Assembly (NCBI GenBank): GCA_021814565.1
Contig: JAKAIC010000007.1
Span: 1 to 41,071 of the forward strand
DNA from: Actinomycetes bacterium
Lineage (GTDB): Bacteria; Actinomycetota; Actinomycetes; S36-B12; UBA5976
DNA length: 41,071 bases
Direction of reading: 5' to 3'
The notes beneath the pieces are model-generated. The model was not told the origin of the DNA. It saw nothing but the letters and a program-made list of their open reading frames with translations, and made no database searches. The position numbers and the translations under genes are program-made. Shown one piece after another: positions 1,186-40,468 of the stretch. Numbering within the stretch: position 1 is the stretch's first letter; every line of letters starts with the position of its first letter.

Positions 1186-4100
1186 GGCGCCATCACCTCC
1201 GCATCGGCATCGGTGAAGGGACGGTAGCTGGGGAGTGCCAACAGCAGGAGTCCGATGAGGGCCAGCAGGGCGAAGGTGAGCGCACCCAGCCGCTGCCCAT
1301 GCTGGTACTCCACGGTGAGCTGGCCATGGGCACCGCTGGGGATCTTCCAGGCCTGCCGCCAGGACGTGGAATACGAGGCTGCAGGTGCGAGGGGCTTGCC
1401 GTCCAGGCTGGCCAACCAGGCGCCCGCAGGCTCAGCAATGCTCACGATGCGATTGGAGCCCGCTGCATCGAGTTGCGTGCTGCCGGAGAGCGTCTGGCCG
1501 ACGGTGTAGTCCAACGGATCCACCACCGGCTGCGCCGATTCGAACCAGGTGAGGGCGAAACGCTGATTGGGTGCCTGCACCTCCCAGGTCGATGTGGATC
1601 CGCGCGTCCCGCCCGCCAGTCGCCGCAATCCCACCGCGCCATCGAGCGCCTGGATCATCGCCGGGTCACCATCTCCCACCGTGACGTACATGATGCCCAT
1701 GGCGGCGAGCCGTTGCGCGTCCGTGCGGTCACGGCCCGAAAGCATCGAGCCGACAATGGTCTTGAGGTCGCTGTTCGCGACATTGCGCGCCACATCCGCA
1801 TCGCCGATGGTGGCGTCGTGGCCGTCGTAGACCGAGAACCGCACGATGCCCGCACTGTCACGGTGCAGCGAGAGCACACGGATCGACATCGGCATCGAGG
1901 TCTTGGCCAGGACGAAGGCCGGGATGGCCGAGACCTCCGTGCGCCGTACAGGCGAATCCCCGTTGCGCCACAACCAGGATCCCGCGCTCAGGACCGGAGC
2001 CAGCAGCACCCCGAAGGTGAGTGCGATAGTGACCACCTGACGCCAGCTGAAGGTGGCACGCGACAGCGATTCGGCCAGACCGTCCGTGACGGAGGCGATC
2101 ACCAGGAGCAGTGCCAGACCCAGCGCGATGGTGAAAGGGCCGGCCCAGCGCTGCAGCGTGGACCCCGTACTGGGATCATCGACCTTCCACCAAGCGGTGA
2201 GCACGGTGAGGAGTACGTAGGAGCCGAACATGGTGACCGCGACGGTCCAGCCCAGCACAATGCGTCGGGTACGCCGCTTCTGCACCAGCGCACCCATGGC
2301 AGCGAGCAACAGTCCCGCTGTGCTGTACAGCCACGGTGAGGCTGCGCCACCCGGCTGCAGCAACAGGACGTGGAAGAAGGTCTGGTCGGCAGCGTTCGGT
2401 ACATCCGCCCCGGTACCCCTCAGCAAAGAGGACGGTTGTGCGATCCACTCCAGGGACAGCGGGAAGAGCACCAGCCAGGCCGACACCGCCATGAAGGCCA
2501 GACGCACACGCTGGATACGCAGTCGACGCCAGAAGAGGCCGGAGATGGACGCCCAGACGACGAAGAAGACCCAGGCCACAGGGACCCAGGCGGCAGTGAA
2601 GGCCACCGCCAGTGCCATGGCGGCGGCCCGCTGCCACGACTCGTCGCAACGCCAAGCCAGGCGCAGCAGCATGGGCAGCGCGATGGCGAGCACGATGGAA
2701 CCGAGGCGACCCGAGGACACCGCGATGAGCAGCCCCGGCAGCAGCGCATAGGTCGCCGCGAAGAAGGCGCGGGGCTCTGCCTGCGGCATCAGCGGACGTG
2801 CCGCCAGATGTGCGGAGAGGCCGGCAAGCGGAACACCGAGCACCAGCAGGGCACCGACGGCCGCACTGACATTGCCGCCGAAGAGCCAGGACCACATGGC
2901 GAGCAGCGGCATCCAGGCCGGGGTCGGTGCGTTCGAGCCCAGGCCGACCCGGTGCCAGTCACTGAAATAGGCCCGGAAGAGGTCGCCCGCACCGCCGTCC
3001 GCGGGCAGCAGACTCCCGCCCTGGAGGACGCCACTCCCCCAGGTGTTGCGGGTGCCCAGCACGCCGATGATGAGCAGGCCCACGAAGAGCAGGGTCCCGG
3101 GCCGCCGCCACACATGGCGCAGGAAGGACTGTCGCCTACTGCGCGTGAGCACAATGGGCTCCTCTGACTGTGCCTCAGCCGCATCCTCGGCATCGTCAAC
3201 GACCTCGACCACATCGAACACATCGCTGCCTGCCCAGACCTCCAGCAGATCATCGAGCTTCTCCACCGCCACCGTGGCCACCAGATCCACGCCGTGCCAC
3301 ATCTGCTCGGCGATGCTGGGACGCAGACGGCGCGGCGCGCGCACCGGAATGACACCACGGGATTCGATCTCCCGAAGCAGGAGCATGGGATTGGTGACGA
3401 AGGCGAACAATGCGCGCAGCTCGTCGCCGGAATCGCGCGGGTCTTTGCCCACGAAGTAGACCAGGGCACGCAACAAGCTGGCGAGCACCAGCCGGAGGAG
3501 GGTGAAGGGCCGGGCCAGAGCGGGCGCGTGGATGTAGGCCGTGGCCAGCGAGACCTCCCGCCCGATGCGATGGGCGCTGCCACGACGCACATCCTGCGAG
3601 CGCACGTCGTGCGTGGCTGCCTCGCGATGGGCCATCTCCGCCTGCGGCACCACGCGTACGCGATACCCGTGCTCCCAGGCCCGCCAGCAGAAGTCGATGT
3701 CATCGCGGTAGAAGGCGAATATGGCACGCATGCCCTGCAGTGTCTGCCAGACGTCTCGGCGGATGAGCATGCCCGCCGAACTGACCGCGAGCACCTCCTC
3801 GGTCTCTACATACTGGCCCTGATCGCGCTCGCCGTGTTCCACCCGTGGGTCACGATGCCCGCTGCCGGTCAGGGTGATGCCGACGTCCTGCAGTTTCGAG
3901 GAGTCGTTCCAGCCCACACTCTTGCAGCCCAGGATGCCGGCATCCGGATGCAATTCGCTGGCGCGCAGGAGCGCGGCTAGGGCTTCCGGCGCAGGCGCCG
4001 AATCGTCGTGGATAACCCAGATCCAGGCATCGTCGTAGGTCTCGATTCCGTCCTGCGAGGCTTCGGCGCCTCCCACTGCAACGTCGGGCAGGGTGGAGAT

Positions 4101-22357: not shown

Positions 22358-22840
22358 TCAGGAAGCGAGAACCTCGTTCAGCACTTCCTCGGCACGGAGT
22401 TCGTCGGTCTTCTGGGCGAGCGCCAACTCCGAGACCAGGATCTGTCGAGCCTTGGCCAGCATGCGCTTCTCGCCTGCGGAAAGGCCGCGGTCCTGGTCGC
22501 GGCGGAAGAGGTCGCGGACCACTTCGGCCACCTTGATGACGTCCCCTGAAGCCAGCTTCTCGACGTTGGCCTTGTAGCGACGGGACCAGTTCGTGGGTTC
22601 CTCGATGTAGGGGCGGCGCAGGACGTCGAACACCTTTTCCAGGCCGGCCGCATCGACCACATCGCGGACGCCGACATACTCGGCATTGGAGGCGGGGACC
22701 CGAACCGTGAGGTCGCCCTGCTGCACCTTGAGCACGAGGTACTCGGTGGGGACTCCCTTGATGTTCCGGATTTCGATGGCTTCGATCAACGCCGCCCCGT
22801 GGTGCGGATACACGACCGTTTCCCCGACTACGAACACCAT
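22358..22840 (-). CDS. carD: CarD-family transcriptional regulator (RNAP-binding)
   Basis: [53 protein letters not shown]. Confidence 0.95.
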
Positions 22841-23022
22841 GCTGGATCCACCTCTCAGAGTTCCCTAGTCTACCAGCAATATGACGCACCCCTCACCTTG
22901 CCGGACAAGCGGGAAAACTCCATGGCGCACAAGGGGTTTCGCTGCGGCAGGAGCTGGCGGCAAGGCGACCCGAAGCGCATCAGCGGGGTCTGGCGCATAG
23001 CCGGCTGGGCTGGTCTCGAAAC

Positions 23023-23037
23023 AGGGCAAAACGCCCT
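23023..23037. terminator. Small hairpin AGGGC-AAAAC-GCCCT, possible terminator distal to the repeat array
   Basis: 5-bp stem with ATTT/TGTTT flanks on either strand. Confidence 0.35.
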
Positions 23038-23043
23038 ATTTCA

Positions 23044-23341
23044 CCCCTCGAATTTGTGTTCGCGCTTCGCGCTCAACAAATCCTCGTCGCTCGGGCAAGA
23101 CGAGCAAGCTCGTGCTGCACCCCTCGAATTTGTGTTCGCGCTTCGCGCTCAACAAATCCTCGTCGCTCGGGCAAGACGAGCAAGCTCGTGCTGCACCCCT
23201 CGAATTTGTGTTCGCGCTTCGCGCTCAACAAATCCTCGTCGCTCGGGCAAGACGAGCAAGCTCGTGCTGCACCCCTCGAATTTGTGTTCGCGCTTCGCGC
23301 TCAACAAATCCTCGTCGCTCGGGCAAGACGAGCAAGCTCGT
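23044..23341. repeat. Tandem array of a 76-bp unit, 4 copies (three full, the fourth identical for 70 nt)
   Basis: Copies start at 23044, 23120, 23196 and 23272: cccctcgaatttgtgttcgcgcttcgcgctcaacaaatcctcgtcgctcgggcaagacgagcaagctcgtgctgca. Confidence 0.98.
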
Positions 23342-23347
23342 CTTGCC
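23322..23347. terminator. Perfect 12-bp-stem hairpin with 2-nt spacer, 2 nt after the regX3 stop
   Basis: GGCAAGACGAGC-AA-GCTCGTCTTGCC; no U-tract, so terminator function is inferred only. Confidence 0.6.
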
Positions 23348-23349
23348 GC

Positions 23350-24048
23350 TCACTCCTCGAATTTGTAACCCAATCCACGGACGGTGAGGAGGTGGACGGG
23401 GTTGGCGGGGTCCTGTTCGATCTTGCCGCGTAGGCGCTTGACGTGCACATCCAGGGTCTTGGTGTCGCCGAAGTAGTCGGCGCCCCACACCCGGTCGATG
23501 ATCTGCGATCGCGTGAGCACGCGACCGGAGTTCCGCACCAGGAACTCCAAGAGGTCGAACTCCTTGAGCGGCATTGCCACCGGGCTGCCATTGACCGTGA
23601 CCAGGTGGCGATCGATATCGATGCGCACCGGCCCCGCCATGATGGAGCCATCCATGCCGTCAGCCTCGACATCGTGCGGCCGCCGCAGCACAGCGCGCAC
23701 CCGCGCCACCAGTTCCCGTCCCGAGAAGGGCTTGGTCACGTAATCGTCGGCGCCCAGTTCCAGCCCCAGCACCTTGTCCAATTCGGAATCCTTGGCCGTG
23801 AGCATGATGATCGGCACGGTGGATCGCTGCCGGACTGCACGGCACACGTCGGTTCCCGACATGCCCGGCAGCATGAGGTCGAGCAGGATGAGGTCGGCGC
23901 CCTCGCGCTCGAACGCCGCCAGGCCGCCATCGCCGGTGCTCTCGACTCGAACGTCGAAGCCCTCCTTCTCCAGCATGAAGGTGACAGCGTCGCTGAACGA
24001 CTGTTCGTCCTCGATCATCAGGATGCGGCTCACGGGACCTCTTTCCAC
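23350..24048 (-). CDS. regX3: OmpR-family response regulator, RegX3-like
   Basis: ILMIEDEQSFSDAV, LILLDLMLPGMSGTDVC, MLTAKDSELDKVLGLELGADDYVTKPFS, winged-helix C-terminus RGLGYKFEE; synteny with senX3, mshA, ybjN and gpm. Confidence 0.93.
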   Translation of the reverse strand: MERGPVSRILMIEDEQSFSDAVTFMLEKEGFDVRVESTGDGGLAAFEREGADLILLDLMLPGMSGTDVCRAVRQRSTVPIIMLTAKDSELDKVLGLELGADDYVTKPFSGRELVARVRAVLRRPHDVEADGMDGSIMAGPVRIDIDRHLVTVNGSPVAMPLKEFDLLEFLVRNSGRVLTRSQIIDRVWGADYFGDTKTLDVHVKRLRGKIEQDPANPVHLLTVRGLGYKFEE

Positions 24049-39508: not shown

Positions 39509-39716
39509 GGTCCCTGGACGGCGAGCCGCGCCTCGAAGAAGACACTGAGTGGCAGCCGCAGGAAGGCGCCCAGCAGCATGAAGGGCCCGAAGGGAATCGT
39601 GTCCTTGCGGCCAGTCCCTAGACCGCGAGCAGCGCCTCGAAGAAGGCACCCAGTGGCAGCACCAGGAAGGCGCCCAGCAGCATGAAGGGCCCGAAGGGAA
39701 TCGTGTCCTTGCGGCC
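39509..39716. repeat. 104-bp tandem duplication (39509-39612 and 39613-39716) of the prepilin-peptidase 3' end
   Basis: Units align without gaps; last 54 nt identical; offset 104. Confidence 0.95.
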
Positions 39717-40382
39717 GGTCCTGCGTGACGCCAGCAGCGCCGCAGACAGGGCGCCGCCACTCATGAAGCCCAGCGCCGTGGCACCCACCACGTAGGCCCA
39801 GCCCAGGTACCCCGTGAGGGCACCGATACTGAGCGCAAGTTTCACATCGCCCATACCCATACCGCCACGCGTGAGCAGGTTCATCAGGAAGTACAGGACG
39901 AACAACGCCACGGCTCCCAGGAAGGCGCCCTGAAGCGCGGCCGGACTGTGGAAGCCCGCGTCCGCAGCCGCCAACAGCAGGGCCACTCCCGCCGCGGGCA
40001 GCGTCAGCACATCGGGAAGGCGTTTGTGGTCGACATCGATGAACCACAGGGCCGCGGCCACAGGCACGAAAAGCAGCCAGGCGATGGCGAAGATACTGGG
40101 GAGCGGCGTGGTGACGACGGCCACGGTAAGCAGTACGCAAAGCAATTCCACCTGCAGGCGACGCGCACCGGGGCTGGTGCCGCACACCCGACAGCGACCG
40201 CGCCGGACCATCCACCCCACCACGGGGAACTGCGCGTGCCAGCCCAGTGGCGCAGCGCAGGTGCCGCATCGGAGCTTGCCCCGCAACGGTTCCTGCTCGG
40301 GCACGCGTTCGATGAGCAACTGCGCGAACCACGACACCGCAGTGCCGTAGACGACCGCGATCAACAGTGCCTGCCAGGTCAT
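39618..40382 (-). CDS. Prepilin peptidase (A24-type) with CxxC zinc-finger-like pairs
   Basis: [33 protein letters not shown] and [10 protein letters not shown] catalytic Asp motifs; RBS GGAGG before ATG 40382. Confidence 0.9.
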
Positions 40383-40468
40383 GGAGCCTCCTAGGTGCGA
40401 TTCTCGCAACCTAGAGGGAGTTCCCTGTGGACGACGGGCCGAAATCCGAGCCTTCTACACTCACCCAC

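Follow-up and report, generated by a model that had tools for sequence, protein, structure and literature searches.

What is the four-copy repeat that separates regX3 from carD, and does it stand alone? The window, that is the whole stretch of 41,071 nucleotides that was analysed, carries both genes on the minus strand (ORF list; Pfam), with the regX3 stop codon at 23350–23352 and the carD start at 22840. TRF returned a 76-bp tandem array at 23042–23341 (3.9 copies, 100% match, no indels) and a direct-repeat search found units spaced 76 nt with 99–100% identity, which confirms that the four-copy array, spanning 23042–23345, is real. From the positions of the regX3 stop and the carD start, it occupies ~60% of the 509-bp gap. 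The features of the locus, listed from regX3 towards carD, are as follows.

23350–24048, minus strand: regX3-type response regulator, the host gene (ORF; Pfam Response_reg and Trans_reg_C)
23359–23366, minus strand: T, ACAAATTC in the regX3 coding end, partner of T′ at 23304–23311 (sequence; fold z −4.34)
23280–23355, minus strand: copy 1, canonical, touching the regX3 stop codon (R1/R2 match, 84–85 bits)
23322–23347, minus strand: hairpin A of copy 1, 12-bp stem with CTTG loop (inverted-repeat match)
23304–23311, minus strand: T′ of copy 1 (GGATTTGT), complementary to the regX3 end (fold; covariation)
23286–23303, minus strand: hairpin B of copy 1 (TGAGCGCGAAGCGCGAAC) with the GCGAAGC mini-hairpin sequence (sequence; pair counts)
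23270–23285, minus strand: second copy of the regX3 end (ACAAATTCGAGGGGTG; direct-repeat family D2)
23204–23277, minus strand: copy 2, with degenerate 5′ side (R2, 73.9 bits)
23128–23201, minus strand: copy 3, same as copy 2 (R2 match; TRF)
23052–23125, minus strand: copy 4, same as copies 2 and 3 (R2 match; TRF)
23018–23042, minus strand: terminator-like hairpin GAAATAGGGC-GTTTT-GCCCTGTTTC between array and carD (fold z −4.46; putative function)
22358–22840, minus strand: carD, the next gene, on the same strand as regX3 (ORF; Pfam CarD_C)

Both hairpins described in the original prediction, ATTTGT..GCGC-GAA-GCGC..ACAAAT and ACGAGC-TT-GCTCGT, were found in the array units. The stated identity of the units holds for copies 2–4, which are mutually identical, but not for the copy adjoining regX3: its hairpin A is a perfect 12-bp stem (GGCAAGACGAGC-TT-GCTCGTCTTGCC), whereas copies 2–4 lack the GAGTGAGC step and carry a shortened hairpin with a degenerate 5′ arm. 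As copies 2–4 are degenerate on this side, only copy 1 has the full structure. Overlooked at first was that the units also repeat the host gene end, once directly and once inverted. A near-copy of the final 17 nt of regX3 (ACAAATTCGAGG[A/G]GTG) opens each unit, and the last codons of regX3 themselves supply the 5′ arm of the basal helix. Copy 1 together with the regX3 end gave an RNA fold z of −4.34, and the MFE structure includes a ACAAAUUC/GGAUUUGU helix. The near-identity of the units supports the proposed recent local expansion, and their identity from end to end, with no unique spacers, agrees with the earlier exclusion of a CRISPR array. For a phase-variable locus, which had also been considered, no evidence was found. 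The copy number was read from one contig of a draft assembly of 156 contigs and three of the 76-bp copies are identical, as might be expected of an assembly artefact; however, similar arrays, some with internal differences, occur in several other genomes and the element itself is present in many, and we consider an artefactual copy number very improbable. Elsewhere in the window, at 39510–39721 (minus strand), the 3′ end of a prepilin-peptidase-like gene (39618–40409) is duplicated in tandem (104 bp, 91% match), leaving a displaced second gene end; the duplication is devoid of the hairpin element of the regX3-array family.

A DNA search of the own genome with the repeat, as proposed along with the original prediction, returned the array and one weak match only. 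Further members were found with two covariance models: R1, with one seed row (alignment A2, G1t2mod) hand-shortened in hairpin B, and its successor R2, which has 25 members, natural matches only. In the own 2 Mb genome the R1/R2 searches yielded nine matches at ~5 loci, with members on contigs C15, C53, C78, C130/C24 and C143. The sister species G001 has more than ten matches at ~10 loci, which include two arrays (3.7 copies of a 73-bp unit, 2.1 copies of a 72-bp unit). Behind regX3, G001 carries one related element in the corresponding position, and its stems differ yet remain complementary. Order-wide, members were detected in 20 of 166 genomes and class-wide in 19 of 395; a phylum-wide sample added no further class, only genomes already within the class. 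The model is specific, giving one sub-threshold match (E 0.2) in 500 kb of unrelated actinobacterial loci and one match (E 0.23) in 1 Mb of the own genome's other contigs. Tandem arrays are present at 8 of the 57 element loci. The regX3 array is thus best read as a locally multiplied member of a dispersed gene-end hairpin family; the original prediction missed this membership.

The family is apparently uncatalogued, and Rfam holds no match to it. Among 13 element loci scanned against Rfam only tRNAs reached the gathering score, and on the minus strand of the window Clostridiales-1 (E 0.016) stayed below it, other matches being likewise weak. IMG/VR pattern scans and plasmid and phage similarity searches revealed no element copy, and searches of the open-licence literature returned no description of the motif, or of actinobacterial REP-like or rtT-like repeats or RNA motifs matching it. 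Variants occur as well. A 57-bp array in G001 (L178, C108, 1759–1914; 2.7 copies, 100%) comprises hairpin B and the gene-end copy without hairpin A, and at L272 (G245:C83, 1502–1606) the hairpin A loop is enlarged by ~25 nt. Family f7 (L225, L231, L232, L236, L242), located behind tRNA-Leu, has a longer hairpin B region in which the T-arm and acceptor end of the tRNA recur in degenerate form. L185 and L186, at the ends of contigs C130 and C24 of G000, are the same element with near-identical flanks, which reflects either an assembly break caused by the repeat or an overlap left unmerged.

How is the element built? It is ~65–80 nt long and, in sense orientation, the host gene or tRNA end (AC N3–5) is followed by GAGYGAGC, replaced by GATTGAGGCGAG in most other families, and by hairpin A, whose stem varies freely and whose loop measures 2 nt in 44 of 57 cases. 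Then come CCGAGCGA (CCGAGCCGATTGAG), N′ GT, TGA, hairpin B and GAAC or GATC, often with a second copy of the gene end (AC N again) thereafter. N′ GT, designated T′, is the complement of the host gene end, and both form the basal helix AC N3–5/N′ GT. In a 73-member alignment, which was fitted to the covariance model and whose pair counts lean towards its own structure, 94.8% of cells are paired, the covariation score is 0.550 as compared to 0.158 (sd 0.010) in shuffles, and both sides have changed in 253 cells versus 58. The test of the basal helix is independent, as this helix lies outside the model: complementarity between host end and T′ is far higher within than between loci (0 of 5000 permutations), and the own score of 5.53 compares with a maximum of 4.84 over 2000 permutations, counts that overstate independence because many loci are related (same tRNA, related species). 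In the basal helix A-T and C-G are fixed, and positions 3–6 covary with several pair types. Indeed, the helix is kept through change in regX3 orthologs (ACAAATTC/GGATTTGT versus ATAAGTTC/GGACTTGT) and in orthologs of the GGYR* gene (ACAGGT/ACCTGT versus ACCGC/GCGGT). Judged by the sequences of these compensated pairs, T′ follows the gene end over time, whether written at insertion or kept by selection.

Several features concern the strand that folds. The short covarying helix is bordered on both sides by opposed GA steps, which suggests sheared G-A pairs in tandem; these tandem steps are present on the sense strand only. The sense strand has the lower MFE at 52 of 57 loci, and all tRNA-adjacent elements share the sense orientation of the tRNA. 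Since hairpin A contains 32 G-T wobbles versus 7 A-C mismatches and the stems covary strongly, it is the transcribed strand that appears to fold, which points to the transcript as the folding molecule, with DNA folding of the same strand as an alternative. A transcribed structured 3′-UTR element with REP-like behaviour, as suggested originally, is a reasonable description.

Does the element belong to the gene ends or has it been inserted there? Elements lie behind tRNA 3′ ends at 24 of the 57 loci (23 at a distance of ≤9 nt, all sense, plus L175, which matches the same tRNA end) and elsewhere behind stop codons in sense direction, an adjacency that is partly automatic as the element contains TGA. 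At L221 (G126:C53:51000–53500; element at 1242–1312, minus strand) only a tRNA-Leu 3′ fragment is found upstream, as would be seen at the distal boundary of an integrated island. Behind rpsI the site is empty in G067, G044 and G052, where the next gene or a GATGCCCCGGG-type hairpin directly follows the stop codon. In G063, G056, G060 and G048 the element is located between stop codon and downstream sequence, and in G063, G056 and G048 the GATGCCCCGGG-type hairpin reappears further downstream. Similarly, the G000 ortholog site is empty for three G001 element loci. Sister species therefore differ in element presence at the same gene ends. The empty orthologous sites and the original terminators persisting downstream indicate that the elements are insertions rather than terminators, and at regX3 the original 3′ end is probably the hairpin at 23018–23042. 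That the array serves as an intrinsic terminator, or as the transcription barrier initially envisaged between regX3 and carD, would agree with stable GC-rich hairpins directly after the stop codon. We consider it very unlikely: no T run (U tract) follows the GC-rich hairpins of the array, separate terminator-like hairpins persist downstream at regX3 and rpsI, and elements are also located directly behind tRNAs.

The sequences flanking the element bear on the same question. The gene-end direct repeat has an own mean of 11.9 as compared to 5.65 (0 of 5000 permutations), and in most loci having a second gene-end copy this copy starts at (C)AC. As several single-copy loci lack a downstream direct repeat, the repeat may stem from tandem duplication rather than from insertion, and because hairpin A differs among copies within one genome, recent transposition is not directly demonstrated. 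Alternatively, the element could be a vertically inherited, immobile RNA motif of 3′ UTRs and tRNA trailers that protects or processes 3′ ends, repeats and arrays arising by replication slippage only. The strong covariation, the sense-only orientation, the wobble asymmetry and the positions common to related species at regX3, rpsI, tRNA-Leu and tRNA-Met speak for this scenario. It appears rather unlikely in view of orthologous gene ends that either carry the element or cleanly lack it, both within one genus (G001/G000) and within one family (rpsI), the location between stop codon and old terminator, and a (C)AC repeat boundary that is more precise than slippage would give. According to a further scenario, the element is a site-specific recombination target or miniature integrative cassette, on which a recombinase acts at AC within the 3′ ends of tRNAs and genes and whose unit brings its own gene end and displaces the old one. 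The preference for tRNA 3′ ends, the tRNA 3′ fragment beside one copy (L221) and displaced gene ends that diverge right after AC (rpsI, TAC|AGC versus AC|TCC; GGYR* gene, AC|AGG versus AC|CGC) would fit. However, no linked recombinase was identified, the phages and plasmids tested carry no copy of the element, the unit is too small for a gene, and host codons such as RegX3 Y-K-F are ancestral, so that gene ends carried by the element would require many lineages, each specific to one gene. We regard such a cassette as improbable.

Weighing these observations, we favour as the probable explanation that the array is a tandem amplification of one short structured insertion-type 3′-end element, which entered before AC at a gene or tRNA 3′ end. 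The element of ~65–80 nt would enter immediately ahead of an AC dinucleotide in the 3′-terminal sequence of a protein gene or tRNA; the host gene end lies on one side of the inserted unit, and at many loci a second copy of that end lies on the other. In the transcript, the gene 3′ end pairs with the element (AC N4...N′4 GT) by virtue of the inverted copy T′ inside the unit, enclosing hairpin A, and hairpin B adjoins this basal helix. Slippage or unequal recombination between the direct repeats of the gene end may then multiply the unit; at regX3 the presumed outcome is one canonical copy and three identical copies of a degenerate variant. As copies 2–4 are identical and share the loss of one step, in the simplest history the element would have inserted and duplicated once, the second copy would have degenerated, and that variant would then have expanded. 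Once transcribed, the element may act as a folded 3′-UTR or 3′-trailer cap between stop codon and original terminator, and it may be tolerated because the gene end is preserved. No mobilizing enzyme was identified, Y1_Tnp (PF01797) being detected in 0 of 20 genomes, own genome included, with positive controls. A broader proposal, which we put forward tentatively as a possibility, is that of a gene-less mobile element, site-specific at tRNA and protein-gene 3′ ends across Actinomycetes, which carries an inverted copy of each target, written or selected, each copy folding with its own host end, and which uses a machinery other than Y1/RAYT.

Small gene-end repeats are usually classed as REP-like families with a known transposase. 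The family described here is conserved as structure rather than sequence, the host gene 3′ end provides half of its basal helix, and sister species differ by its gain or loss behind tRNAs and genes, with no enzyme identified. The covariance model offers a tool for enzyme search and transcript 3′-end mapping.

Comparable features are known from other systems. Integron attC sites likewise occur in tandem at the 3′ ends of genes and fold into a conserved structure despite variable sequence. However, their basal boxes RYYYAAC/GTTRRRY are absent from the element, whose basal helix is AC N3–5/N′ GT, and unlike in attC the folding strand is the sense strand and there are no gene cassettes. A resemblance to attC, as well as to hammerheads, was rejected on core sequence. 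The rtT repeats of the E. coli tyrT locus are tandem units behind a tRNA, each with a copy of the tRNA 3′ end, similar to the host-end copies in our arrays; compared by description, the rtT units are longer and differ in host and sequence. REP/BIME elements of the GTAG and CGTC super-families are small hairpins, transcribed and located behind coding regions, in some cases reiterated in tandem (PMC3733652), and position and tandem arrangement of our hairpins would suit the suggested REP/BIME repeats mobilized by a RAYT transposase. Yet the element comprises 65–80 nt with two hairpins, forms a basal helix with the host gene end and also resides at tRNA 3′ ends. Its 73-row alignment has no conserved column resembling the unpaired terminal GTAG/CGTC tag, its ~5 loci (nine matches) in 2 Mb contrast with copy numbers often >100, and its arrays run head-to-tail in sense only, whereas REP/BIME units alternate in orientation. 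GTAG-type REPs have a Y1 (RAYT) transposase, and RAYT mobilization was dropped given the absence of Y1 enzymes from the 20 genomes, as far as these drafts are complete; membership in REP/BIME thus appears hardly credible. In M. tuberculosis, MIRUs are 77-bp units located between senX3 and regX3, and the copy number of mycobacterial MIRUs is strain-variable (PMC4213456, PMC2453075). Similarly, our array is actinobacterial, has a unit of 76 bp (the MIRU class spans 40–100 bp) and touches regX3, albeit after the gene rather than between senX3 and regX3. Compared by description and not by sequence, MIRUs are the closest known repeats in size and neighbourhood, and the array raises the question, as asked for MIRUs, whether the number of tandem copies modulates two-component genes such as regX3.
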